A stretch of 36,947 bases of DNA, taken from positions 1 to 36,947 of the IMG/VR virus record IMGVR_UViG_3300042556_002430. One strand, given 5' to 3'. The notes beneath the pieces were generated by a model. That model had not been told where the DNA came from. It saw only the letters and a program-made list of their open reading frames with translations, and made no database searches. Positions 3,798-36,872 of this stretch are shown one piece after another; positions within the stretch are counted from its first letter, which is position 1, and each line of letters opens with the position of its first letter. The position numbers were made by a program, and so were the translations under genes. Origin of the DNA: a virus.

Positions 3798-4312
3798 TTG
3801 ACATTCGACGCTTCGCCAGCATGGGCGAAAACCCCTTAGACAAACTTGAAACATCGTATCGGCCAGATATGGCCGGCGAGATCGACACACTGGCTGACGA
3901 ATGGGCCGACCAGCTTGATCTGGCCGAATGGCAGCATAAGGCTTTGGTGTTGCTGATGGCGGAACATCAGATGCGGGAGGCGCGAGAGACAGCCAGTAAA
4001 ATGCTGATCCCGATTCTGACCTACCTCAACGAGCCGCGCGGCAATAAGACGTTGCGCTATTACGCTTTCTTGCTCGCGGCCGGGGATACGTCGATCACGT
4101 TGGCGCACAGCTATTCGGAGCTGGCCCGCAAGATCGGGGTGACGCGGGCGGCGCTGTCGAAGGCTGTGATCGAGATGCAGGAGAAGCTGGGGCTCAAAGC
4201 ACACAACAATTTCCAGAAGTCGGACGAGGCGCGCGAGAGTTCGCGCATGGCCGCGCACCGCTCCTGGCAGAAACGACACAACGAGGAGAACACACATGAG
4301 CAAAGAAATTGA
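3794..4312 (+). CDS. HTH-containing protein of replication module
   Basis: 172 residues. The start at 3794 has GGAGG 10 nt upstream and overlaps the preceding TGA; the frame is open further upstream but that part is shadow. The segment YSELARKIGVTRAALSKAVIEM (about residues 113-134) fits a helix-turn-helix, followed by a basic tail. The N-terminal half is helical and unidentified. It could be a replication initiator or regulator; the call rests on the HTH and position. Confidence 0.6.
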   Translation: MIDIRRFASMGENPLDKLETSYRPDMAGEIDTLADEWADQLDLAEWQHKALVLLMAEHQMREARETASKMLIPILTYLNEPRGNKTLRYYAFLLAAGDTSITLAHSYSELARKIGVTRAALSKAVIEMQEKLGLKAHNNFQKSDEARESSRMAAHRSWQKRHNEENTHEQRN

Positions 4313-5171: not shown

Positions 5172-5720
5172 ATGACCCTAACCCAACTTGCCCAAAGCCT
5201 CGAATGCCGCAACGCGCAAATTACAAAGTGGAAAGCCGAGGGGATGCCGACCACCTCGGCGGAGGCCGCGTCGGAGTGGCTGACAGCTCAGGGGGTCAAG
5301 AGGAGAAGACCGCATTATCAAAACAGGGAGAAGCTGGAAGCTCCCGCTCTGGAAGGATTGCAAAGAGGCGCAAAAGCTCGACTCGAAAGGGCCGAAGAGG
5401 GGGAGACTCGGCACTACGAGCTGTGGAAAACGGCGGCCTACGGCAAGACGGACAGCAAACAGGTGGCCGAGCTGGCAGCAGCCTGGAGGGACATGAGGAA
5501 AGCGGCGGCGACAGCGGAAACAGAGTATCACCAGTTCTGTGCACAGAATCAGATAACGATAAACCGAGCGGAGACGCTGGCAGCATTTCGGGGGTTGATA
5601 GCGGCAGCGGTGCAGGATTTCTCAACGCGAGGGTGGGGGGCGGAGGCGACGGCGATTCTGAACAAGCACTTGGGGACACTGCCCGCGTCATTGAGGATGG
5701 GAGCACCTCAGAAGCCATAG
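5172..5720 (+). CDS. terS: Terminase small subunit
   Basis: 182 residues. The N-terminus (LTQLAQSLECRNAQITKWKAEGMP) is a helix-turn-helix typical of terminase small subunits that recognise the packaging site; a helical oligomerisation region follows (about 60-150). It lies directly between the repeat block and terL, as expected. I prefer the ATG at 5172; a TTG at 5145 is in frame but adds residues before the HTH. The C-terminus overlaps the start of terL. Confidence 0.75.
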   Translation: MTLTQLAQSLECRNAQITKWKAEGMPTTSAEAASEWLTAQGVKRRRPHYQNREKLEAPALEGLQRGAKARLERAEEGETRHYELWKTAAYGKTDSKQVAELAAAWRDMRKAAATAETEYHQFCAQNQITINRAETLAAFRGLIAAAVQDFSTRGWGAEATAILNKHLGTLPASLRMGAPQKP

Positions 5721-7787: not shown

Positions 7788-7810
7788 TTGACACCGCCCG
7801 CGAGGGCATG
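7788..7810 (+). promoter_or_regulatory. Start-associated sequence 1
   Basis: TTGACACC, then GCCC-GCGA-GGGC (4-bp stem with a GNRA-type loop), directly before ATG 7808. TGA to start is 19 nt. Here the TGA does not terminate the annotated upstream gene. Confidence 0.6.
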
Positions 7811-8068
7811 ACCGACGCCGCGATGCTGGCCCGTGTGTTCACGGCCGGCGAATTGTCCCAACTCAAAGCCTCCTGCAAGGCGCAGATTCTTGCGGGCGGG
7901 GCTTCGCAAGCCTTTGTCGTGTCCAGTTCGGTGGGCGGGCGCTCGGTCACGCTGCAACAGACCTACAACGCCTGGGATATGCTGGGCTTGATCGAAACCG
8001 CGCTGGCTATCAACGCCGGCGACATTGGCAACGACCGGGCCACCCGCGCGCAATACGGAGTTTACTGA
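7808..8068 (+). CDS. gpW-like head-tail joining protein
   Basis: 86 residues, matching the small size and position (between terL and portal) of lambda gpW, which closes the packaged head and accepts the tail. It has two helices (about 1-30 and 55-72) separated by a beta hairpin (SQAFVVSSSVGGRSVTLQ), the gpW fold pattern. Translation appears to use the start-associated sequence rather than a strong Shine-Dalgarno site. It stops 1 nt before the portal ATG. Confidence 0.65.
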   Translation: MTDAAMLARVFTAGELSQLKASCKAQILAGGASQAFVVSSSVGGRSVTLQQTYNAWDMLGLIETALAINAGDIGNDRATRAQYGVY

Positions 8069-8069
8069 A

Positions 8070-9623
8070 ATGGCAAAACTGATCGACAAAATCGCCGGCA
8101 AATTCGGATTCAGCCGCATGGTGGAAGCCGCCAACTGGCGACCCGAAGAGCGCGCTTGGGTGCAGGCACAGGCGCAAGACAGCAAGGTGGACATCAGCAA
8201 CGGCGACCGCGTGCGCCTCCTCGGGCTATCCCGCAAACTTTTTTACAACAACGCCATCGTCCGCGCTGCAATCCGCGACATGGCAACGTATTCCGTCGGC
8301 TCGAGCATCACGCCCCAGGCGAATAGCGGCGATCCCGCATGGGACGATGCAGCGGAGGCATGGTGGGCCGAGTGGTCGAAGTCTCCAGAAATCAGTGGAC
8401 GCCACGATATGCGCCGGCTGCAAATGTTGGTTTCTGAAGCCATCGACCGCGACGGCGAAATTTTCTGCATTCTCACGAGCAAAAAAACCGGCGACGGCAT
8501 GGGTTTTGTCACGCCGTCCGTGCAAATCATTGAATCTCACCGAGTAGCCAACCCCCCCGACAAATTGGACGAGATTGTGGATGGCGTCACGCTCGACAGT
8601 TACGCCCGCCCGTTGGCGTATCACGTGGTAGAGGGCGACACCTTCAGCCAGCGCACCAGCCGCAGCATCCAAGCCGATTTGATGCTGCACGTTTACGAAC
8701 CCGAGCGCCCGGACCAAGTGCGCGGTTATCCCGCCGTGGCCGTCGCGTTGAACAACCTCCTCGACCGCGACGAACTTCTGCGCTTCGAGATGCAGGCCGC
8801 GAAGATCGGCAGCAGCATCGGCCTTGTCGTGCAAAACGCCCAAGGGGGCGTCGGCGCGGAAGGATTCTTTGGCGACTTGAGCAAAAACAGCGGCGAGTCC
8901 CTCACCCGTGAAACCGTTTTCGGCGCCGGCATGATCCCCCGCCTCAAAGCCACCGAGCGCATCGAGTCGTTTATGATGAACCGCCCCAACGAAAAGTTGG
9001 ACGCGCACCTCGAGCAATACATTCGCGCCGCCGCCCTTGGCCTAAAACTGCCGTATGAGTTTATCTGGGACACGAGCGCCGTCGGTGGCGTGGCCCAGCG
9101 GTTCATCTTGCAAAAAGCCGCGCGCGCCTTTGCCGCCCGGCAGGATGTGCTCATCTCATCTTTCTTGGGCAAGCTCTGGAACTACGCCATCGCCAACGCC
9201 ATTCGCAGCGGCCAGCTCCCCATGAACCCCAACTGGCGCAACGTCCATTGGCAGACGCCGCGCAGCATCACCGTGGATGTCGGCCGCGAAGCCGCCGCCC
9301 GCCGCGACGACGTGAAAGCCGGACTTATGACCTTGGCCGACTTTTTCGGCGAGCAGGGGCTCGATTGGAAAACCGCCATGCAGGAAATCGCTGCCGAGCG
9401 CAAATTTGCTGCCGAGCTGGGCATCATCGTCGGCGTCGAGCGCACCGAGGGGGCGACGGTTATCGACCCTGCACCCATTGCAGGGGACGGCGGTTCAACT
9501 CCGCCCGCCTCCACCCCGGAAGAAATGGAATCGGCAGAGCCAGCCACCGAACTTTCCGCCCGAGCCCGCAAAAAGAAGCGCATCTACAAGCGCAAGAAAG
9601 CCGAGCCGAAGATCGACGTTTGA
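8070..9623 (+). CDS. Portal protein (lambda gpB family)
   Basis: 517 residues, forming the dodecameric vertex through which DNA enters. Family signs are an N-terminal ARAAIRDMATYSVG-like stretch (actual 'AIVRAAIRDMATYSVG', 71-86), the DRDGEIFCIL segment, ESHRV, and the C-terminal RFILQKAARAFAARQ region, in the usual order. It follows gpW and precedes the protease-scaffold gene as in lambda. The ATG at 8070 is chosen because upstream codons overlap gpW. The C-terminus is basic (KKKRIYKRKK). Confidence 0.88.
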   Translation: MAKLIDKIAGKFGFSRMVEAANWRPEERAWVQAQAQDSKVDISNGDRVRLLGLSRKLFYNNAIVRAAIRDMATYSVGSSITPQANSGDPAWDDAAEAWWAEWSKSPEISGRHDMRRLQMLVSEAIDRDGEIFCILTSKKTGDGMGFVTPSVQIIESHRVANPPDKLDEIVDGVTLDSYARPLAYHVVEGDTFSQRTSRSIQADLMLHVYEPERPDQVRGYPAVAVALNNLLDRDELLRFEMQAAKIGSSIGLVVQNAQGGVGAEGFFGDLSKNSGESLTRETVFGAGMIPRLKATERIESFMMNRPNEKLDAHLEQYIRAAALGLKLPYEFIWDTSAVGGVAQRFILQKAARAFAARQDVLISSFLGKLWNYAIANAIRSGQLPMNPNWRNVHWQTPRSITVDVGREAAARRDDVKAGLMTLADFFGEQGLDWKTAMQEIAAERKFAAELGIIVGVERTEGATVIDPAPIAGDGGSTPPASTPEEMESAEPATELSARARKKKRIYKRKKAEPKIDV

Positions 9624-9643
9624 CATGAGCCGCCGCGTATATG
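9619..9643 (+). promoter_or_regulatory. Start-associated sequence 2
   Basis: TTTGACAT, then GCCGCC, a short AT-rich loop containing the ATG (9641), and GGCGGC, forming a hairpin that spans the start. TGA, here the portal stop, lies 20 nt before ATG. Confidence 0.55.
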
Positions 9644-10492
9644 GCGGCACTCAAATTTGCAGGAATCAGCGTGGCCACGGTCGGCCCCGCGCTCGGTCAC
9701 GAAATGTTCGTGGACGATGTGACCTTGCTCCAAGCCGAGCAGGCAGGCGTGGCCGGCAGCCCGGTCAAAGTTTTCGTCGATCACGACGAGTCGATTGATT
9801 CGCTCATCGGTTTCTTGTCCGGCTTCCGCATCGAGGAGGACCAACTCCGTGCCGACCTCGAGCTACTTTCCGCGCACCCGCAGGCTGAGTTTTACGCCGA
9901 GATTCTGACCAAAGCCCCCGGTCGCGTCGGCTTCAGCATGACCTTCAGCGGCAAACCCGAGGAAGTCGGTGATCAGCGACTCGCCCGCGTCGAAAACCTT
10001 GTCTCCGTCGATCTAGTGAGCCGTCCGGCGGCCAATCCCGACGGCGTTTTCAAGGCCGGCAAAGTGGCTGCCGTTGACATCGAGCCCGTGGGCATGGACG
10101 AACAAAACGCTCCTCAACAGTTCGACGCGAAAGCAGCCATTGAAAATCTGGCTGCCGAACTCCGCGCCGAGATCGCCGCCGCTTTGGCCGAAAAAGCCGA
10201 GGCCGCACAATCCGAAGAAGTTTCCGAAGAAGCCCCCGTTGTCGAAGCCAAGGCCGAAGAGCCGGCCGTTGAGAGCGAAGCCCTTGCCGCGTTGTCGGCC
10301 AAGGTCGCCGAACTCGAAGTGGCTCTGGCCGCCAAAGGCAGCGCGCCCGTCGCCAGCTCTGGTGCCGCCAGCGAAGACCCGGTGGAGCAGTTCAAAGCCG
10401 CCAGCGAGTCGAAGGACTGGAAACGCTGCGCCTCAATTTTCAAGGCACACAAGGCCGCCATCATGCGCGCCCGCAACCAAAACAATTTCTAA
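9641..10492 (+). CDS. Prohead protease with C-terminal scaffold domain
   Basis: 283 residues. The N-terminal ~150 residues resemble phage prohead serine proteases: FVDHDESIDSLIGF and, near 127-140, VSVDLVSRPAANPDGVF with the catalytic-Ser-like SxDLV..PA. The rest (151-283) is Ala/Glu/Lys-rich coiled coil ending RARNQNNF, typical of scaffolding proteins. A protease-scaffold fusion before the coat gene matches the lambda C/Nu3 arrangement. An internal start at 10094 would give the scaffold alone. Confidence 0.75.
   Translation: MAALKFAGISVATVGPALGHEMFVDDVTLLQAEQAGVAGSPVKVFVDHDESIDSLIGFLSGFRIEEDQLRADLELLSAHPQAEFYAEILTKAPGRVGFSMTFSGKPEEVGDQRLARVENLVSVDLVSRPAANPDGVFKAGKVAAVDIEPVGMDEQNAPQQFDAKAAIENLAAELRAEIAAALAEKAEAAQSEEVSEEAPVVEAKAEEPAVESEALAALSAKVAELEVALAAKGSAPVASSGAASEDPVEQFKAASESKDWKRCASIFKAHKAAIMRARNQNNF
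10074..10096 (+). promoter_or_regulatory. Start-associated sequence 3, internal to the protease gene
   Basis: TTGACATC, then GAGCCCGTGGGC and ATG 10094. TGA to ATG is 19 nt, the same as sites 1, 4 and 5. It sits inside coding sequence and points at an in-frame Met at the protease-scaffold boundary. Confidence 0.55.
10094..10492 (+). CDS. Nested scaffold protein (internal start in protease gene)
   Basis: In-frame ATG 10094 would give a 132-residue protein (MDEQNAPQQF...) made only of the coiled-coil scaffold part. The boundary coincides with the end of the protease domain, and the start carries the same upstream sequence used by at least eight other genes here. Lambda makes Nu3 from inside gene C in the same way. 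The separate product is inference; the start signal is seen. Confidence 0.5.
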   Translation: MDEQNAPQQFDAKAAIENLAAELRAEIAAALAEKAEAAQSEEVSEEAPVVEAKAEEPAVESEALAALSAKVAELEVALAAKGSAPVASSGAASEDPVEQFKAASESKDWKRCASIFKAHKAAIMRARNQNNF

Positions 10493-10547
10493 GGGCCAAC
10501 CCCCTCAAGAAAACCCCAACAACCAACAACAAAACTAAACCAAAAAT

Positions 10548-11396
10548 ATGGCAAACGTATTCGATTCAGCACTCGTCGTAGCGACGATCTCTGAGCAAGT
10601 GCAAACGGTGCTGGCTAACAGGTTGGCCCCGCTTCGCATCATGAGCACGGATTTCAGTTCTGAAGTCCGCAAACCCAAGGACACCATCCAGGTGCCCCTC
10701 GTGACCGACACCTCGGCCACTTCCACCAACCCGACCGATTTCACTCCGGCTTCCAACGTCACTGTTGGCAAGGCCACCGTGACGCTCGACCACTACGCAC
10801 AGTTCTTCGGCATCACCCAAGCCGAGCTGGCCAACGGTCATCGTCTGGAAAACTTGGTCCGCATCAACCTCAACGCCCTCGCCGACAAAATCTTTTCGGT
10901 GGCGATCACTCCGATCACCACGGTCAATTTCGGCGCGGCCACGGTCACCACGACCAACATCACCCCCGGCAGCGGCCACTTGGCGACTCTTTGGAGCGCC
11001 ATCAGCAAAGCCGACCGCAAGGGCTTGGTTGTCACCCCGGAGATCTACAGCAAGTTGATCCCCACCAACGCCGACTTCCTCCCGCTCCAGAACGGAGCCT
11101 ACGGATTCGACCAGGGCATCTACTACGCCAACAGCTTCAGCGGTGCAGTTTCGGGCCTCGATGGCTTCGCCATTTCGCCTGAAGCGATTGCGGTGGCCTC
11201 GGCCATGCCCGCCGTCGATCCGGCTGTCGCCAACCTGCTCTACGTCTCGGATTCCGTGACGCTCGACCAGCTCGGCATGACCATCATGTACAACATCACA
11301 GCCTCGCAGAGCACCCGCACGGTCACTGCCTCCTGTGAAGTCATGTTTGGCTCGGCCGCCGGCCTCACTTCCGGCACCTGCGCGCTCATCGTCTAG
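10548..11396 (+). CDS. Major capsid protein
   Basis: 282 residues, directly after the protease-scaffold gene and followed by a strong hairpin, as expected for a highly expressed coat protein. The N-terminal part has a helix (FDSALVVATISEQVQTVLAN), then a Thr/Val-rich beta region, then helical and beta alternation compatible with an HK97 fold. DHYAQFFGITQAELANG is coat-like. The 55-nt leader is A-rich and has no strong Shine-Dalgarno site. Identified mainly by position and pattern. Confidence 0.75.
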   Translation: MANVFDSALVVATISEQVQTVLANRLAPLRIMSTDFSSEVRKPKDTIQVPLVTDTSATSTNPTDFTPASNVTVGKATVTLDHYAQFFGITQAELANGHRLENLVRINLNALADKIFSVAITPITTVNFGAATVTTTNITPGSGHLATLWSAISKADRKGLVVTPEIYSKLIPTNADFLPLQNGAYGFDQGIYYANSFSGAVSGLDGFAISPEAIAVASAMPAVDPAVANLLYVSDSVTLDQLGMTIMYNITASQSTRTVTASCEVMFGSAAGLTSGTCALIV

Positions 11397-13228: not shown

Positions 13229-13791
13229 AGCTGGAAATTCTTATCCCGACGATGCCGGGGCGCGCGGCCATGCTGCAAAAGCTGCTGGCCGTGTTGCAGC
13301 CACAACTAAAGCGCGGCGTCCGCATCAGCACCGACGACGGCCCCGGTTCTATCGGGGCCAAACGCCAGCGCATGATTGAGGCGGCTACGGGCGACTACAT
13401 CGCGTTTGTGGATGACGACGATATGGTCGCGCCGGATTACATCGCGCGCATCTTGCCTTGCCTCAAAACCAAGCCCGATTGCGTCGGCATCACCATGCAC
13501 GTTACGATGGATGGCCGAGACTGGCACCCATCACCCATTTTCCGCCACAGCCTGCGCTTCCGCGAAAACCATCACTGGCAAGGCCAAGACCGCACCCCGC
13601 ACCATCTCTGCCCGCTACGGCGCGACATGGCGCTGAAAAGCCGATTTCCCGATATGATGTGGGGCGAGGACTACAACTATGCCCTCGGCCTGTTGCCGCA
13701 TTTGCAGACCGAGGAATGGAGCGGCGACGAACCCATCTATTTTTACCACTACGTCACCAAGCGAGGCGACCCCGGCGTGGCTGCGCTTTGA
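13225..13791 (+). CDS. Glycosyltransferase family 2-like protein
   Basis: 188 residues, a compact GT-A domain: MKLEILIPTMPGR at the N-terminus, GAKRQRMIEAATGDYIAFVDDDD with DDDD at 63-66 (sugar-nucleotide/metal site), and a later WGEDYNYAL that supplies the catalytic acidic region. The ATG overlaps the previous stop (ATGA), so the two glycosyltransferases are coupled. The short length suggests a single-domain enzyme acting with the preceding protein. Confidence 0.75.
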   Translation: MKLEILIPTMPGRAAMLQKLLAVLQPQLKRGVRISTDDGPGSIGAKRQRMIEAATGDYIAFVDDDDMVAPDYIARILPCLKTKPDCVGITMHVTMDGRDWHPSPIFRHSLRFRENHHWQGQDRTPHHLCPLRRDMALKSRFPDMMWGEDYNYALGLLPHLQTEEWSGDEPIYFYHYVTKRGDPGVAAL

Positions 13792-13810
13792 CTCGCCACC
13801 TTAGGGCATG
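13787..13810 (+). promoter_or_regulatory. Start-associated sequence 4
   Basis: TTTGACTCGCC, then TTAGGGC and ATG 13808. The TGA (13789) ends the glycosyltransferase gene and lies 19 nt before the start. Confidence 0.55.
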
Positions 13811-14143
13811 GCGAACCAGTTAGACACCGCGCACATCTTGGGCGTGGCCGCGATCACCGATGTCGGCGGCGAATATGTGACCATCGGCGGCACGCAACTC
13901 AAATGCGTGATCGGCAGCATGGATCTGCGCGACGAATTGGCCGAGGGTGGCGTGCGGCAAATCCGCAGCGTGCAACTGGCTATCCCGCGCAGCGAGTTCA
14001 ACCGCCGGTTCAGCTTGGGCGGCAGCATCGAGATTCCCAAAATCTGGAGCCGCCTGACCGTGCGCGGCATCGAGCTTCAAGTGCTCTCAGTCTCACAAGA
14101 CGCCGCTGTCATCGAAATCACGGCCGGCGGACTGGCGGAGTAA
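13808..14143 (+). CDS. Neck / head-completion protein (putative)
   Basis: 111 residues, mostly beta strands (EYVTIGGTQLKCVIGS; WSRLTVRGIELQVLSVSQ; AAVIEITAGG). Size, fold pattern and position between the head and tail genes fit a head-tail connector. No diagnostic motif; position is the main evidence. Confidence 0.5.
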   Translation: MANQLDTAHILGVAAITDVGGEYVTIGGTQLKCVIGSMDLRDELAEGGVRQIRSVQLAIPRSEFNRRFSLGGSIEIPKIWSRLTVRGIELQVLSVSQDAAVIEITAGGLAE

Positions 14144-15008: not shown

Positions 15009-15883
15009 TTTACCGAGAATTAGAATCCGCCTTTGCCGCCTATCTTGCCGCCGCCCGCGCCGGAACCGCCCTGGCTGCCGTGCCCGTGCGCCATGCCGTG
15101 CCGGCCGATCCCCTCGGTTTTCCCTGTGTCATCGTTTCCGCCGCCTCGGCCGAACTGCTGGAAGGTGGCGTCCGCTCCGCCACCCGCGCCACTATGGATT
15201 TTTCCGTCATCACCGCCGCTCATTCCGGCGTGAATTGGCAGGTGGCCCACAAGGACCGCGTGGCTGCGCTCTCGCGCCTCCTCGACGACACCAACACCAA
15301 CAGCGCGCTGGCCGCCATCCACGCCGGGCAAAACAGTTTCACCCTCTACGGCTGGCACCTTACCGAAATGGCCAGCGAGACCGCTGCCAATTACCAGACC
15401 GATTCCCTCCGCATCAGCCTCGTGGCCGGCCAACGCATCGCCACCGCTCCCACCGGCCCCGTCGCCACCCCGCAAAACTACAGCCTCCGCCACGAGATCG
15501 AGCAAATCGTCGCCGCCCACCTCGCCAGCGAATTGCCCGCGTCTGCTTCCGACCATTATACCGTCTATCCTTACTATTCTGAAACCGCTGCTCCAGCGCG
15601 CCGCATTGTCGCCGCGTGCTCTTCAGCCACCCGGCCCTTTCCTCAGCTCGCCCGATGGACTGCCTCCGCATCCATCCATGTCGTGACGCCCGGTGAATCC
15701 GCCCGGCAGCACGCCGATGTCGTGCAGCTCGTGCAAGCATCCTTGCGCGGCATCGTCGCCTCCGATTTTACCACGGCCAATGTCACCGTCGCCGGCCTTT
15801 TGGAGGCGGGACACACGAGCACGCCGGGGGAAAACCGCCTGACCGACGTGCTTTCATTCAACCTTTTCTGCCAGCAGAATTGA
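15005..15883 (+). CDS. Tail terminator-like protein with internal duplication
   Basis: 292 residues, twice the usual ~130-150 for a tail terminator. The halves (1-~150 and ~155-292) share one layout: an N-terminal helix (YRELESAFAAYLAAA / LRHEIEQIVAAHLAS), a strand-rich middle with MDFSVIT / SASIHVVT, a helix with KDRVAALSRLL / ADVVQLVQASL, and a final strand pair ending DSLRISLVAG / DVLSFNLFC. This suggests a tandem duplication of the terminator fold. Terminators cap the tail tube; two copies per chain would give a hexamer ring from three chains (inference). Confidence 0.55.
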   Translation: MIYRELESAFAAYLAAARAGTALAAVPVRHAVPADPLGFPCVIVSAASAELLEGGVRSATRATMDFSVITAAHSGVNWQVAHKDRVAALSRLLDDTNTNSALAAIHAGQNSFTLYGWHLTEMASETAANYQTDSLRISLVAGQRIATAPTGPVATPQNYSLRHEIEQIVAAHLASELPASASDHYTVYPYYSETAAPARRIVAACSSATRPFPQLARWTASASIHVVTPGESARQHADVVQLVQASLRGIVASDFTTANVTVAGLLEAGHTSTPGENRLTDVLSFNLFCQQN

Positions 15884-15902
15884 CACGCCCCGCGAGGGCA
15901 TG
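15880..15902 (+). promoter_or_regulatory. Start-associated sequence 5
   Basis: TTGACACG, then CCCCGCGAGGGC and ATG 15900, almost identical to site 1. The TGA (15881) ends the upstream gene and is 19 nt before the start. Confidence 0.6.
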
Positions 15903-16454
15903 AGCTTAACTTACGGTTCCCCCAGCGGATTTTCCGTCACGACCAGCAAGAATTTTGAGCGCCTGATTGTTTTGGGCAAAGATGGGGCACTCGCCACTGG
16001 CGGCAACATCCTCAAATACACCCGCACCGAAACCTCGACGGAAACAGTGGCTTCGACTTTTGGTTGCCCTGTGATCGGAAGCAACGAAGTTCTCGACGCG
16101 ACTGTTGTTTATTCTGTCGACGAAACCATTGTCGAACCATCGTCTGCTGGTGCAGTGCCGCCCTCTGCCCGCACCTACAACCCCCGCGCGGAAGCCACCG
16201 CCACCGTCTTGGGCGAGTTTACCGGCGCAACCTTCAGCCTCGACAACATCACCTTCACCACCGATTCCCACGAGAAAAGCGCAACCAGCGGCGATGTGGT
16301 CAAGACCACCTTGCGCGGCACGTCCTATGGTCAAGCAGGCGACTTGACCGTCGGCGCTATTCAAGCTGGCGGCACCATCCGTAAAGAAAAGCGTTTCAGC
16401 AATACCGATTTCGTCCGCGAAGTCACCACGCTTGTTGCCTTTGCAGCCTCCTAA
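15900..16454 (+). CDS. Major tail tube protein (putative)
   Basis: 184 residues, rich in Thr, Ser and Val and mostly beta, as in tail tube proteins. It lies between the tail terminator and the tail assembly chaperones, the usual tube gene position, and has a strong start-associated sequence. Segments such as FTGATFSLDNITFTT and a final FVREVTTLVAFAAS are consistent, but there is no unique motif. Confidence 0.6.
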   Translation: MSLTYGSPSGFSVTTSKNFERLIVLGKDGALATGGNILKYTRTETSTETVASTFGCPVIGSNEVLDATVVYSVDETIVEPSSAGAVPPSARTYNPRAEATATVLGEFTGATFSLDNITFTTDSHEKSATSGDVVKTTLRGTSYGQAGDLTVGAIQAGGTIRKEKRFSNTDFVREVTTLVAFAAS

Positions 16455-20228: not shown

Positions 20229-22339
20229 TCTCGTGGAGGATACCCACAACTTACGAGGGCTTGAGTTCCTCCAGCTTTATTTCGCGCACCGAATCATGGT
20301 CACGCTCCAGCACGCTTAGCAACAGGCAGACCACTACTTACAGCGGGCAGACGGCAACGGGCTCGGGGAGCAGCAGCAGTGAATCCACGTTTTATTCCTA
20401 CGAGTATTCCGGCTACGGGTTTCAATCAACCGAGTATTCCAGCAGTTACTCCAGCTCCAGCACGGCCACCAGCTCGTTGATCGCAACGCAAGAAATTATC
20501 AGCTACGACGAGAGCGACAACGAAGTCACAGAAACGGAAACCTACACCGAGGCCACCAGCGGTTCGGACTCTTATTCTACAAGCGAAACCTTTTCTTCCA
20601 CCTATCAGCTTACGTCTTACGCGCAGACCTCGACCACGACGACCGCCGCCTACGCCGCCTATTCTCTTTCCTCAAGCACGGCTGAAAGGGTGGCCGATGA
20701 ATACTTTGCCATTGGTATTGTCACGACTTGGACGACTTACACTTTTTCCAATTCTTTTTTGCAAACCACCGGCATTGATACCAGTTCCGGCATGGCGGAT
20801 GCTTACTGGTTTTTAACTTTTACCACGTATAGCGCCATTGCCAGCGTCACGATTGAAAAAGCCGACACAACAACGCAGGCCAGCACTTCCGAAGGGGTTA
20901 ACTACGACGATGACGGCAACGAGTTTACAGAAGCGGTAAATTATGCCGCAACTGTCAGCAACCCCAATTCGGAAACCGTAACTTACCACACATGGGCCAC
21001 TGTCGTGCAGGCGGCGGAAGATGAGGTCATCTACCACATCGCCAATCCGGGCTCGGACTGGGACGGTTATGCCGAGGCGCGGACATTAGCCGCGTCTGCA
21101 ACGCGCATCACGCTCTATCCGACCGCTGCCGTCACAGAGGGCATCCTTTCAGCGTCAGACGTTACGACCACATCGAGCTGGTCATCGCCCGGACTCTCCA
21201 GCAGTTTGTCCCTCAAAACGCTGTCGCTCAGCTCTTTTTCGCTGGCCCGACCGGCCAACACCACAGTCATCCCGCCGAGCACTACGACGGTGCGCTTTGA
21301 TCGTTTTACGACACAATCGACATCCCAGAGTTACCAGATATTCGATTCTTCAACTTCCAATACTTGGGGCATTGGAAAATCGACCACGGACGTTCCTCGG
21401 TTTGGCTTCTTGCCGGAAACGGTATTTCAGCAATGGCAAAACGTGGCCTATGACGCAGTAGTGGCAACCAAAACGACCAGCTCGCACACCACTTATACAA
21501 TCGGCGCTTATGTGACCAGCGAGACCAGCACGACAGAGGCTTTCCCTGACAGAACTCCAAGCTCAGCTTTTGATCCGCTTACTTTTGTAACCATATTTGA
21601 AGGTGCTGGCGCAGACGTTACGAGCAGTAGCGCGCAAGAAGAAAAACGAGAATACAGCTACGCCACTTTGCCGGGGGGGAACACTACGCTATCGACTGTG
21701 CAAATTGGCGTGGGTGGCATCGGCTTTCCTGTCACGACGCGGCAATTTCGCTGGGGCACGGCAGGCGTAGCGGTCGGCAACAGCACGGGGGGCTGGTTTA
21801 CCGCAGCCCAGACTTTTACTATGGGGTTTGCTTATACTGCGGCCGATGGCTCGCGCAGGCGCGTCTCTACTTTGGCCGTGACCAGCAACTCGACATGGAC
21901 TTTGAGTTCAAACTTTTTGAGCTACACGACATTGAGCGGCACCGACACTACGACGACCACCGCGTTAGTCGGGGTGTCGGGTAGCACATTCATCCAAGAG
22001 GACGGCACATCTCGACCGGCTAGTGCTTACCTACATTTCGGGGGCGGGCCTTTTGCGGCGGGGTGGACGGTAGTCGATCACGTTGGGGTCGGCGCGTATT
22101 CCGATATTATCGGAAACCAAACCACATTTTTTACTGGAGAGGATACCGTTTATACCGCCGGTGAAAGCGCGGCGATTAGTCGCTTTGTTCTCATTCCAAA
22201 TGTAAACCCGCCCGCGCCAGTGAACCAAAAAAACGGCATTTATTGGGTCGAAAAGAAAAACAGCTATTACAGCCTTTACCTTGATCAGGCTCTTGTCGTG
22301 GATACGGGGCGGATGGTAGATGCCGAGGTTGGTCTTTGA
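20225..22339 (+). CDS. Large Ser/Thr/Tyr-rich tail protein
   Basis: 704 residues. Of the first 100, 46 are Ser or Thr, with many Tyr, and the bias continues through most of the protein. There is no coiled coil or standard fibre motif. The C-terminal ~250 residues are less extreme, with beta strands and YWVEKKNSYYSLYLDQALVV-like character. It is likely a tail-tip or adhesin protein. The Ser/Thr bias and the following glycosyltransferase and cupin genes suggest O-glycosylation; that is inference. The ATG at 20225 overlaps the upstream stop. Confidence 0.6.
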   Translation: MISWRIPTTYEGLSSSSFISRTESWSRSSTLSNRQTTTYSGQTATGSGSSSSESTFYSYEYSGYGFQSTEYSSSYSSSSTATSSLIATQEIISYDESDNEVTETETYTEATSGSDSYSTSETFSSTYQLTSYAQTSTTTTAAYAAYSLSSSTAERVADEYFAIGIVTTWTTYTFSNSFLQTTGIDTSSGMADAYWFLTFTTYSAIASVTIEKADTTTQASTSEGVNYDDDGNEFTEAVNYAATVSNPNSETVTYHTWATVVQAAEDEVIYHIANPGSDWDGYAEARTLAASATRITLYPTAAVTEGILSASDVTTTSSWSSPGLSSSLSLKTLSLSSFSLARPANTTVIPPSTTTVRFDRFTTQSTSQSYQIFDSSTSNTWGIGKSTTDVPRFGFLPETVFQQWQNVAYDAVVATKTTSSHTTYTIGAYVTSETSTTEAFPDRTPSSAFDPLTFVTIFEGAGADVTSSSAQEEKREYSYATLPGGNTTLSTVQIGVGGIGFPVTTRQFRWGTAGVAVGNSTGGWFTAAQTFTMGFAYTAADGSRRRVSTLAVTSNSTWTLSSNFLSYTTLSGTDTTTTTALVGVSGSTFIQEDGTSRPASAYLHFGGGPFAAGWTVVDHVGVGAYSDIIGNQTTFFTGEDTVYTAGESAAISRFVLIPNVNPPAPVNQKNGIYWVEKKNSYYSLYLDQALVVDTGRMVDAEVGL

Positions 22340-22360
22340 CACGCCGTCCGCCCGCGAGTG
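22335..22360 (+). promoter_or_regulatory. Start-associated sequence 6
   Basis: TTTGACACGCC, then a GC-rich stretch ending GCGA and GTG 22358. The TGA (22337) ends the Ser/Thr-rich gene, 21 nt before the start. Confidence 0.55.
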
Positions 22361-23822: not shown

Positions 23823-23848
23823 TTTGACACGCACGCCGTGGCTATATG
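23823..23848 (+). promoter_or_regulatory. Start-associated sequence 7
   Basis: TTTGACACGC, then GCC-GT-GGC, TAT and ATG 23846. The TGA (23825) is 21 nt before the start and is not the stop of the upstream gene, which ends at 23820 in another frame, so the conservation is not a by-product of a stop codon. Confidence 0.6.
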
Positions 23849-24631
23849 CGCGTTTACGTCGATCTGGATTCACGGGCCTTTGTCGTCTCGCCGACGCTTT
23901 TGCAGCGCGTCAGCACTATGTTTTTCACCCGCCGGGACGCGCTCCCGCTGGAAGTGCAGTTTGTCCGCAACGGCGCTGTCGTGGAACTCGCCTCTGGAGC
24001 CACGGGCAAATTCGGCATCAAGGCCGCAGGCAGTTTTGACGGCGCATTTTTGGCCTACGCCGGTTCATGGACAAAAACCGGCACCACGACCAGCACGGTT
24101 TACACTCTCACGCTCAACGTCAATTCGACCGAACTTGACGAGCTGTTCCCCGGCGATGATGAGGAAAGCGTAAGCGGCGTTTGCGAGCTGGAATGGACCG
24201 TTGGCACGACCGTCAGCAGCACGCTTCCTTGTGCAGCCACGATCTACAATGACGTGATCCGCGAGACGCAGACCGGCAGCGACGGCGTTGCCAATGTGCG
24301 CCTGACCATTTTGCAGGGTTCGACTTTTTCGCAACAGTTTGTGTGGAAGACAGGCGACCCCGCGACTCCTGCCGACCTCACCAGCTACACAGCCCGCGCC
24401 CAAGCCCGCGCGACCTATACGTCATCCACCGCCATTTTCGATCTCACGACAGCGAATGGCGGCATCACTTTGGGGGGAACGGCAGGAACCATCACCCTTG
24501 CCCTAAGCTCGACCGCCACCGCCGCGCTTACGCCCGGCAACTACGTGTGGGATTTGGAACTAACCCTCGGCTCGACAGTCCGCCGCTTGATCGCGGGCAA
24601 ACTAACCGTCTCCCCCGAAGTCACCCAATAA
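23846..24631 (+). CDS. Tail fibre / baseplate upper protein (putative)
   Basis: 261 residues, two beta-rich domains: 1-~130 ends around NDVIRETQTG, then ~140-261 (VRLTILQGSTFSQQFVWKTG...ADLTSYTARAQARA...). The second domain resembles the BppU-like or 'phage fibre upper' pattern in which an incoming polymer property is declared by repeated strands. It sits between the cupin and the main fibre gene. Assigned by pattern and position. Confidence 0.5.
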   Translation: MRVYVDLDSRAFVVSPTLLQRVSTMFFTRRDALPLEVQFVRNGAVVELASGATGKFGIKAAGSFDGAFLAYAGSWTKTGTTTSTVYTLTLNVNSTELDELFPGDDEESVSGVCELEWTVGTTVSSTLPCAATIYNDVIRETQTGSDGVANVRLTILQGSTFSQQFVWKTGDPATPADLTSYTARAQARATYTSSTAIFDLTTANGGITLGGTAGTITLALSSTATAALTPGNYVWDLELTLGSTVRRLIAGKLTVSPEVTQ

Positions 24632-27070: not shown

Positions 27071-27093
27071 TTTGACACCCCGCCGCAGGCATG
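27071..27093 (+). promoter_or_regulatory. Start-associated sequence 8
   Basis: TTTGACACCCC, then GCC-GCA-GGC and ATG 27091, with TGA 18 nt before the start. It lies in a true intergenic gap, past the TAG stop of the upstream gene. Confidence 0.6.
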
Positions 27094-27255
27094 GACTACC
27101 TGCTTGCCCGCCTCAAAGAACCTAGCACCTATCTCGGCTTCGCCGCCATCGCCACCGGCATCGGCCTCAAGCTCGAACCCGAAGTTGTCCAGGCATTCGC
27201 CGCTTTGTTTATCGCTGCCGTTGGCGTCTACGAGGTTCTCCGCAAGGCGAAATAA
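27091..27255 (+). CDS. Small membrane protein, holin candidate 2
   Basis: 54 residues: LLARLKEPSTYLGFAAIATG, then a hydrophobic helix (VVQAFAALFIAAVGVY) and a basic end (LRKAK). 'RLKEPSTY.G' with one or two membrane helices matches a widespread phage holin-like family. Its TAA overlaps the next ATG (TAATG). With the preceding gene it makes a possible holin pair. Confidence 0.6.
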   Translation: MDYLLARLKEPSTYLGFAAIATGIGLKLEPEVVQAFAALFIAAVGVYEVLRKAK

Positions 27256-30036: not shown

Positions 30037-30056
30037 GCCCCGCCGGACGTGTCAAA
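30034..30056 (-). promoter_or_regulatory. Start-associated sequence 9 (minus strand)
   Basis: Reading the minus strand: TTTGACACG, then TCC, GGCGGGGC and GTG 30036; TGA to start is 18 nt. No gene ends at this TGA, so the motif exists independently of upstream coding sequence and on the opposite strand. Confidence 0.6.
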
Positions 30057-35747: not shown

Positions 35748-36872
35748 ATGTGGATTCTGCCTCGCCAATTACACACGTCTCCCTTTGTGCCGGATACGGA
35801 GGCATTGATCTCGGACTTAAACGAGCAATCCCAAGCCTGCGCACAATCGCTTTTAGTGAGATCGAAGCCTTCGCCTGCGCGAACTTGGTCTCTAAAATGG
35901 AAGCGGGACTCTTGGACGCAGCTCCTATCTGGACGGATCTTAAAACCTTCCCATGGTCCGAGTTTCACGGCCGCGTGGACATCCTTTCTTTCGGATATCC
36001 ATGCCAGCCGTTTTCAGCCGCCGGCAAGCGACTCGGCGCCGAAGACCCAAGACACCTCTGGCCGTTTATCGCAGCCGGAATTGCTGCAATGCGACCAAGT
36101 GTCTGTTTCGCTGAAAACGTCGAGGGACATATCAGCCTTGGGCTTCCCGACGTGCTGCAAGACTTGGCAGGAATGGGTTACCGAACGACGTGGGGCGTGG
36201 CGTCAGCGAGTGAATGCGGTGCGCCTCACCAGCGGAAGCGGGTCTTTATCTTGGCCTACGATGGGAACAACGCAGGCGCACATCTCTGGCCAAGGCTCAT
36301 CGACAGTCGAGGAGGTTGCACGCCAGAAGACCTTTCATCTCAAGCAGCGAACCAACAAGCATGGCGAGGTAGTAACTCGCGGCGATGGCAAGACGCACCA
36401 AGCGACTTTGGCGTCAGCGGTAGTTGGAGTGCAGAACTGGCCGACAGCCAATGCGCGGGACTGGAAGGATTCCGGGCCGACCCAGGGCAATCGACAGAAT
36501 CCCAACTTGGGGACTGCGGTGGTGAAGGATGCGGCGAATTGGCCGACACCGAACGCCAACGAGATCCAGAATCCCAACAAGGAGTATCGGTCGCCGTGCA
36601 ATGCATATCGAGGCGACAAGAAGGTGCAGCCGATGCTGTGCGATGCAGTGCATCACTATGGCCAAGCCGCCCCGGCGAGCAGCAATACGAGTGGGAGCCG
36701 CCAAGGGTTTGCCATGCGATTGAATCCAAGATGGGTCGAAGTTTTGCAAGGACTTCCGGTCGGCTGGACGATGCCGTCCTGCACGTCTCCACAGACAATC
36801 GCACCGATGAGCTGCGACTGCTCGGCAATGGAGTTGTGCCAGCCACCGCAGAGCGGGCTTTTAGAGTGCTGA
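35748..36872 (+). CDS. Overprinted +1-frame protein with W-x-T modules (allele B, complete)
   Basis: 374 residues in the +1 frame of the methyltransferase, starting with ATG 35748, 2 nt before the methyltransferase GTG, behind the same GGGAGGAG. It has three WPT units (Trp codons at 36252, 36438 and 36540; the second reads WPTANARDWKD) and ends LNPRWVEVLQGLPVGWTMP. The first half has no recognised fold. Conservation with allele A in this frame at the 3' end, but not the 5' end, indicates that at least the C-terminal part is a real protein. An internal start just before the modules is possible. Confidence 0.55.
   Translation: MWILPRQLHTSPFVPDTEALISDLNEQSQACAQSLLVRSKPSPARTWSLKWKRDSWTQLLSGRILKPSHGPSFTAAWTSFLSDIHASRFQPPASDSAPKTQDTSGRLSQPELLQCDQVSVSLKTSRDISALGFPTCCKTWQEWVTERRGAWRQRVNAVRLTSGSGSLSWPTMGTTQAHISGQGSSTVEEVARQKTFHLKQRTNKHGEVVTRGDGKTHQATLASAVVGVQNWPTANARDWKDSGPTQGNRQNPNLGTAVVKDAANWPTPNANEIQNPNKEYRSPCNAYRGDKKVQPMLCDAVHHYGQAAPASSNTSGSRQGFAMRLNPRWVEVLQGLPVGWTMPSCTSPQTIAPMSCDCSAMELCQPPQSGLLEC

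Follow-up and report, generated by a model that had tools for sequence, protein, structure and literature searches.

A conserved TTGAC element 20 nt before an in-frame internal ATG points to nested scaffold synthesis within a phage protease gene

Does the gene that lies between the portal and capsid genes of this phage encode one protein or two, and if two, what would direct the ribosome to the internal start? The DNA analyzed, referred to here as the window, is an IMG/VR virus record of 36,947 bases in which the open reading frame (ORF) 9641-10492 sits between the portal gene (PF05136, 8025-9623) and a probable capsid gene (10548-11396, an assignment that is a weak PF25209 match in a Pfam search). 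A first-pass annotation had placed a start-associated motif before an in-frame ATG inside this ORF, exactly where a protease domain was thought to give way to a coiled-coil scaffold. Position and frame proved right: TTGACATCGAGCCCGTGGGC occupies 10074-10093 and is directly followed by ATG 10094, in frame with the ORF. The distance from the first T to the A of this ATG is 20 nt and becomes the 19 nt originally given only if counted from TGAC. The same annotation held that the motif appears once within coding sequence, which is so for the full motif, but one other TTGACA is found at 3798, where it spans codons 2-4 in a gene with a Shine-Dalgarno site and seems to be there by accident. The features discussed below are collected in Table 1.

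Table 1. Protease-scaffold gene, predicted nested product and TTGAC elements of the window (d, nt from the first T of TTGAC to the start codon)
Feature	Position	Strand	Remarks
Element before 86-aa gene 7808-8068	7788..7807	+	gene directly upstream of portal gene (gpW-like position)
Element before the protease's own ATG 9641	9620..9640	+	TTGACATGAGCCGCCGCGTAT, d=21; its TGA is the portal gene stop; conserved in relatives
Protease-scaffold gene	9641..10492	+	283 aa/283 codons; residues 1-128 modelled with T4 gp21/assemblin fold; 163-279 helical scaffold
Nested start element	10074..10093	+	TTGAC at 10074-10078, 15-nt spacer, then ATG
Predicted nested scaffold protein	10094..10492	+	132 aa, 13.8 kDa, pI 4.6, starts MDEQNAPQQ; start codon conserved as ATG or GTG
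Element before 111-aa gene 13808-14143	13788..13807	+	
Element before 184-aa probable tail-tube gene 15900-16454	15880..15899	+	
Element before GTG start 22358 of 346-aa gene	22336..22357	+	d=22; conserved in G346, G347
Element before 261-aa gene 23846-24631	23824..23845	+	d=22
Element before 54-aa holin-like gene 27091-27255	27072..27090	+	d=19
Element before GTG start 30036 of 246-aa gene	30037..30055	-	d=19; conserved in three relatives

The protease-scaffold protein gave no match in a Pfam search, and hence not the Peptidase_S49 domain of lambda prohead proteases, nor was a match found in a PDB sequence search. A structure model built from 21 homologues had a mean pLDDT of 66.7, with values of ∼80 over most of residues 1-128, and the best structural match of this part was T4 gp21 (Z 9.0, rmsd 3.7, 122 residues aligned, 10% sequence identity over the aligned part), while herpesvirus assemblins matched with Z scores of 5-7 (7.0 for the KSHV protease). 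Foldseek run on the protease model gave an E value of only 0.01 with coverage of one domain. By model comparison, this part therefore shares the fold of the T4 gp21 and herpesvirus assemblin prohead proteases, and because of these matches we consider its designation as a protease domain by fold to be well founded. His20, His48, and Ser99 are invariant across the 21 homologues and are candidate catalytic residues. The model extends the protease fold to about residue 128, followed by disorder at residues 131-160 and helices from residue 163, with the nested Met at residue 152, which places the nested start within a disordered linker ahead of the scaffold helices. The proposed domain boundary is thus borne out, with only helices, not a coiled coil, seen in the model. 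A single ORF between the portal and major capsid genes hence combines a protease domain and then a scaffold domain, as in genes of the lambda C/Nu3 type.

The N-terminal peptide of the predicted nested scaffold would be MDEQNAPQQFDAK, and those of relatives would be (M)TESSVTEQ and (M)TENSSVAK. All of the first-found relatives in which the junction is covered keep the nested element. In a wider scan, TTGAC and a start codon were present in 72 of 74 distinct homologues, at identities as low as 35%, spaced as TTGAC-20 nt-ATG in 69, TTGAC-20 nt-GTG in two, and TTGAC-23 nt-ATG in one; loss of the internal ATG in relatives, which the first-pass annotation had named as grounds for giving up its proposal, is therefore not what the family shows. 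The other two, distant homologues (L067, 33% identical, and L085), lack both TTGAC and a start codon at the junction, and the nested arrangement is therefore not obligatory in the wider family. Linker, spacer, and flanks around the nested element vary in both sequence and length. Nested sites are spaced at 20 (or 23) nt; a spacing of 19 or 22 nt does not occur among them and would bring the TGA of TTGAC into frame.

Conservation of this kind could also arise at the protein level if VDTxxxGM were a protease linker or self-cleavage motif and the likeness of the DNA were incidental; indeed, VD and GM are the sole conserved residues in an indel-rich linker. The codons argue otherwise. At Val146, 40 of 40 sequences use GTT, a codon that makes up 30% of Val codons, and this column is the most constrained of 138 conserved columns, which indicates selection on nucleotides beyond that on the protein alone; the Gly codon is likewise GGC in 40/40. 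Furthermore, the Met is replaced by Val (GTG) in L385 and L387 and the Gly is lost in L363 and L375, in all four cases with TTGAC and the spacing unchanged, and the same DNA is present before non-nested genes and in unrelated proteases. We therefore regard a purely protein-level constraint as highly improbable. The swap of ATG for GTG at a fixed place points to use of this codon as a start codon.

Other genes of the phage carry the element as well. An unprompted repeat search grouped 7788, 10074, and 15880 as direct-repeat family D13, each member ending on ATG, with a looser copy of this type of motif at 13788. Across the window, an ATG lies at 19-22 nt after eight of the 27 plus-strand TTGAC sequences, compared to 1.6 expected (binomial P of about 1e-4), and after none of the 20 on the minus strand, one GTG-started gene apart (element at 30055). 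This last gene probably encodes a metallophosphoesterase, judging by its sequence motifs. In 18 of 41 gene clusters, the gene ahead of the element ends on the TGA inside TTGAC (9621, 13789, 15881, 22337, and relatives). Stop-start reinitiation through this TGA was considered and rejected, as the nested and other cases do not have it.

The probable capsid gene at 10548 is preceded by neither TTGAC nor a Shine-Dalgarno sequence; it has a long A/C-rich leader (10500-10547; anti-Shine-Dalgarno dG +2.0), which brings the kinds of start apparently in use in this phage to at least three. DNA methyltransferase genes are present at both contig ends (43-1218 and 35729-36892), sharing a 99% identical 300-nt stretch (1-300 versus 35933-36232) and a 93% identical one before they diverge. 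Either the two are tandem paralogues of a genome that is circular or permuted, or the assembly overlaps at its ends.

Alignment over gene clusters showed strong conservation only of TTGACA(C) and the start codon, with nothing conserved upstream of TTGAC. What is essential is TTGAC(A) followed, 19-22 nt after its first T, by the start codon, and, beyond what the first-pass annotation had proposed, the conserved parts can be narrowed to TTGAC(A)(C) and the distance only. A GGGC before the ATG is common but dispensable and was rejected as a core feature: it is lost in L363, L375, and many families, and its frequency is partly exaggerated by the search pattern used. Among loci fetched by protein similarity (L001-L050), TTGAC lies 19-22 nt before ATGs of open frames 99 times versus 4.6 expected, whereas control IMG/VR phage contigs gave three versus 10.2 expected, and control motifs of the same composition showed no such peak, except for words overlapping TTGAC. 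With the spacing tied to start codons both here and in the window, the suggestion that the motif is a translation start signal gained support. A scan of all IMG/VR contigs with the pattern TTGACAC-N-GGGCATGA recovered at least 118 stretches with a start distance of 20 nt and 105 with 19 nt, compared to 30 for a mis-spaced control (25). The element was found in several unrelated phage groups. The phage collection searched contained no close isolate relative, a scan of genome contigs with the protease found no prophage, and the hairpin pattern matched genome contigs at chance level only.

The pattern search also found the nested element in protease-scaffold genes of the ClpP type (L174, L179, L210, L226, and L237; L127; L236) and of the S49 type (L058, L071, and L119); the L119 family carries a Peptidase_S49 domain (Pfam) and is separate from the protease family of the window. 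At the ClpP-type junctions, the residues around the nested start (after the slash) are FDTPAKG/MTGILSK, FDTKTSA/MSILDK, and FDTFAQG/MTQQPE. In each S49 or ClpP case, the nested start lies 4-24 residues past the Pfam protease domain (residue 274 after S49 120-262, 217 after ClpP 55-194, 304 after 162-299, and 306 after 122-281). A protein-based scan of the S49 family detected a nested TTGAC-20 nt-ATG at the junction in 71 of 71 distinct ORFs, 61 of which carry a further TTGAC 19 nt ahead of their own GTG start. All well-populated nested clusters at distance 20 were scaffolds, with a single tape-measure case (L168). In that tape-measure protein gene (L168:3161-5617), the element lies inside the coding sequence (FDTLRKG/MKQIA), which suggests that a C-terminal tape-measure product is made from a nested start.

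The sigma-70 -35 consensus hexamer reads TTGACA as well. The element could be a promoter, in which TTGACA serves as a -35 box or belongs to a phage promoter of an unusual type, and the scaffold would be made from an internal transcript, as for herpesvirus UL26.5 within UL26. In the Verrucomicrobia phage P8625, several late genes have TTGACA ∼36 nt ahead of them, and a TAT-like box follows 17 nt further downstream. In the window phages, however, TTGAC lies only 19-22 nt from the start codon, and a -10 box and the transcript start would therefore fall inside the gene. Moreover, no conserved hexamer is found up- or downstream of TTGAC, and the spacing is locked to the ATG/GTG start codons and not to a second DNA box. 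A sigma-70 promoter in particular was rejected, as the place of a -10 hexamer 16-18 nt downstream is taken by the first codons and is not conserved, and no upstream element is present. We consider a promoter unlikely. As for P8625 itself (an isolate, L300), the sites near 5448, 10772, 15594, and 17541 combine TTGACA and the TAT-like box with an inverted repeat of the GTATC type just before the ATG, a layout that likely represents promoters with very short leaders or operators.

An action on translation initiation would account for the variation between ATG and GTG at a fixed place, the spacing tied to the start codon, the free spacer, and the lack of a promoter partner. By its sequence, the element is not a Shine-Dalgarno site, since anti-Shine-Dalgarno pairing at 10094 is weak (dG -2.6 kcal/mol) compared to that of Shine-Dalgarno genes in the same phage (-7 to -11), and the complementary purine stretch ∼5-10 nt before the start is missing there. 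No complement to UUGAC was found in the 3' tail of one planctomycete 16S rRNA, and base pairing with the 16S 3' tail was set aside on the basis of that single sequence. Phage-encoded bS21 was not found in 24 phage records. Some Verrucomicrobia are listed as Shine-Dalgarno scarce (PMC10783764). A contig of 3.3 kb in a planctomycete genome bin (L485; G241:C123), the binning of which is uncertain, encodes a distant homologue (E 1e-47) with one element 22 nt before the start of its gene and a nested one at 23 nt. In ∼220 kb of the same bin there is no excess of TTGAC before starts (4 versus 3.7), which, given that the contig may be mis-binned, hints weakly at a phage-specific signal.

In a different role at the same place, the element would be bound by a DNA- or RNA-binding regulator of the phage or host that happens to cover start codons, such as a translational repressor or activator of late genes, and the nested ATG would be controlled and not simply marked. 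This would suit the presence of the element on a subset of genes, mostly structural, its not being a general signal in the genome bin holding a relative, and the hairpin that several gene families have in the stretch from TTGACAC to ATG. The hairpin does not hold as a general feature, however (mean z -0.43 over 34 gene clusters and -0.24 at the nested site), and the spacer sequence is free, making a regulator site, in our view, very unlikely. The hairpin was accordingly rejected as a core feature; it is strong in holin-like, tail, and a few other families. In some gene families, GC-rich hairpins such as GCCC-GCGA-GGGC and CCCC-GCAA-GGGG fill the spacer just before the ATG (7788-7807, 15880-15899, and holin-like genes of relatives).

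Taking together the element, its spacing and conservation, the codon-level constraint, the domain boundary, and the recurrence in unrelated proteases, we think it quite probable that gene 9641-10492 encodes two in-frame proteins through an internal translation start at 10094 that is set by the TTGAC element without a Shine-Dalgarno sequence. With sequence as the sole evidence, the case for this nested scaffold start could hardly be much stronger. Translation from ATG 9641 would give the protease-scaffold fusion and independent initiation at ATG 10094 the 132-aa scaffold alone, which would be made in excess over the protease because of this independent initiation. The scaffold would then co-assemble with the fusion via the shared C-terminal part, and the protease would remove it as the head matures. 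At 10094 and at eight other genes, initiation would be set by TTGAC(A)(C) followed by ATG or GTG after 14-17 nt, and the signal would be read on the mRNA. We also lean, more cautiously, toward the broader view that UUGAC(A)(C) 19-22 nt before ATG/GTG may constitute a distinct class of non-Shine-Dalgarno start signal, present in several unrelated lineages of uncultured tailed phages, read by some ribosomal or phage factor and strong enough for nested scaffold synthesis inside protease genes.

Nested scaffold synthesis itself is already known from lambda. The novelty lies in a single short DNA word that, at a constant spacing, precedes starts in three unrelated protease families as well as in many further phage genes, apparently in the absence of Shine-Dalgarno pairing. 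The start signal appears to be undescribed in the literature searched, where no description of a TTGAC start motif was found; subscription journals were outside this search, and the absence is weak evidence. If it is a true start signal, gene prediction tools trained on Shine-Dalgarno sites may place starts wrongly and overlook nested genes in such phages, and TTGAC with its spacing provides a simple search pattern for nested scaffolds. It also raises the question of which ribosome part or phage protein reads UUGAC.

Like Shine-Dalgarno sites, clear examples of which precede some other genes of this phage, the element is a short mRNA motif with a set spacing ahead of the start, but it reads UUGAC and lies at -19 to -22, where a Shine-Dalgarno site has GGAGG at about -8, and it has no complement in the planctomycete 16S 3' tail examined. 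T4 gp21 is the closest structural counterpart of residues 1-128 despite the low sequence identity, yet the T4 scaffold, gp22, is encoded by a separate gene. In herpesviruses, the scaffold is encoded alone within the fusion gene UL26, with UL26.5 arising from an internal transcript. The window gene resembles UL26/UL26.5 in its protease fold, by model comparison, and in a scaffold encoded alone within a fusion gene, and would differ in relying on internal translation. In lambda, C/Nu3 is an S49 protease gene with an in-frame nested scaffold, and Mu I/Z is a second case. The likeness to C/Nu3 drawn by the first-pass annotation extends to the gene order (gpA-type terminase, small gene, portal, protease-scaffold, capsid) and to a conserved in-frame scaffold start near the protease-scaffold junction, but not to the protease, which has the T4 gp21/assemblin fold and not that of S49, nor to the start signal, which is of the TTGAC type. 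Lambda B, C, and Nu3 form an initiator complex (PMC3224144). The S49 relatives L398-L476 combine the protease family of lambda with the TTGAC-type signal.
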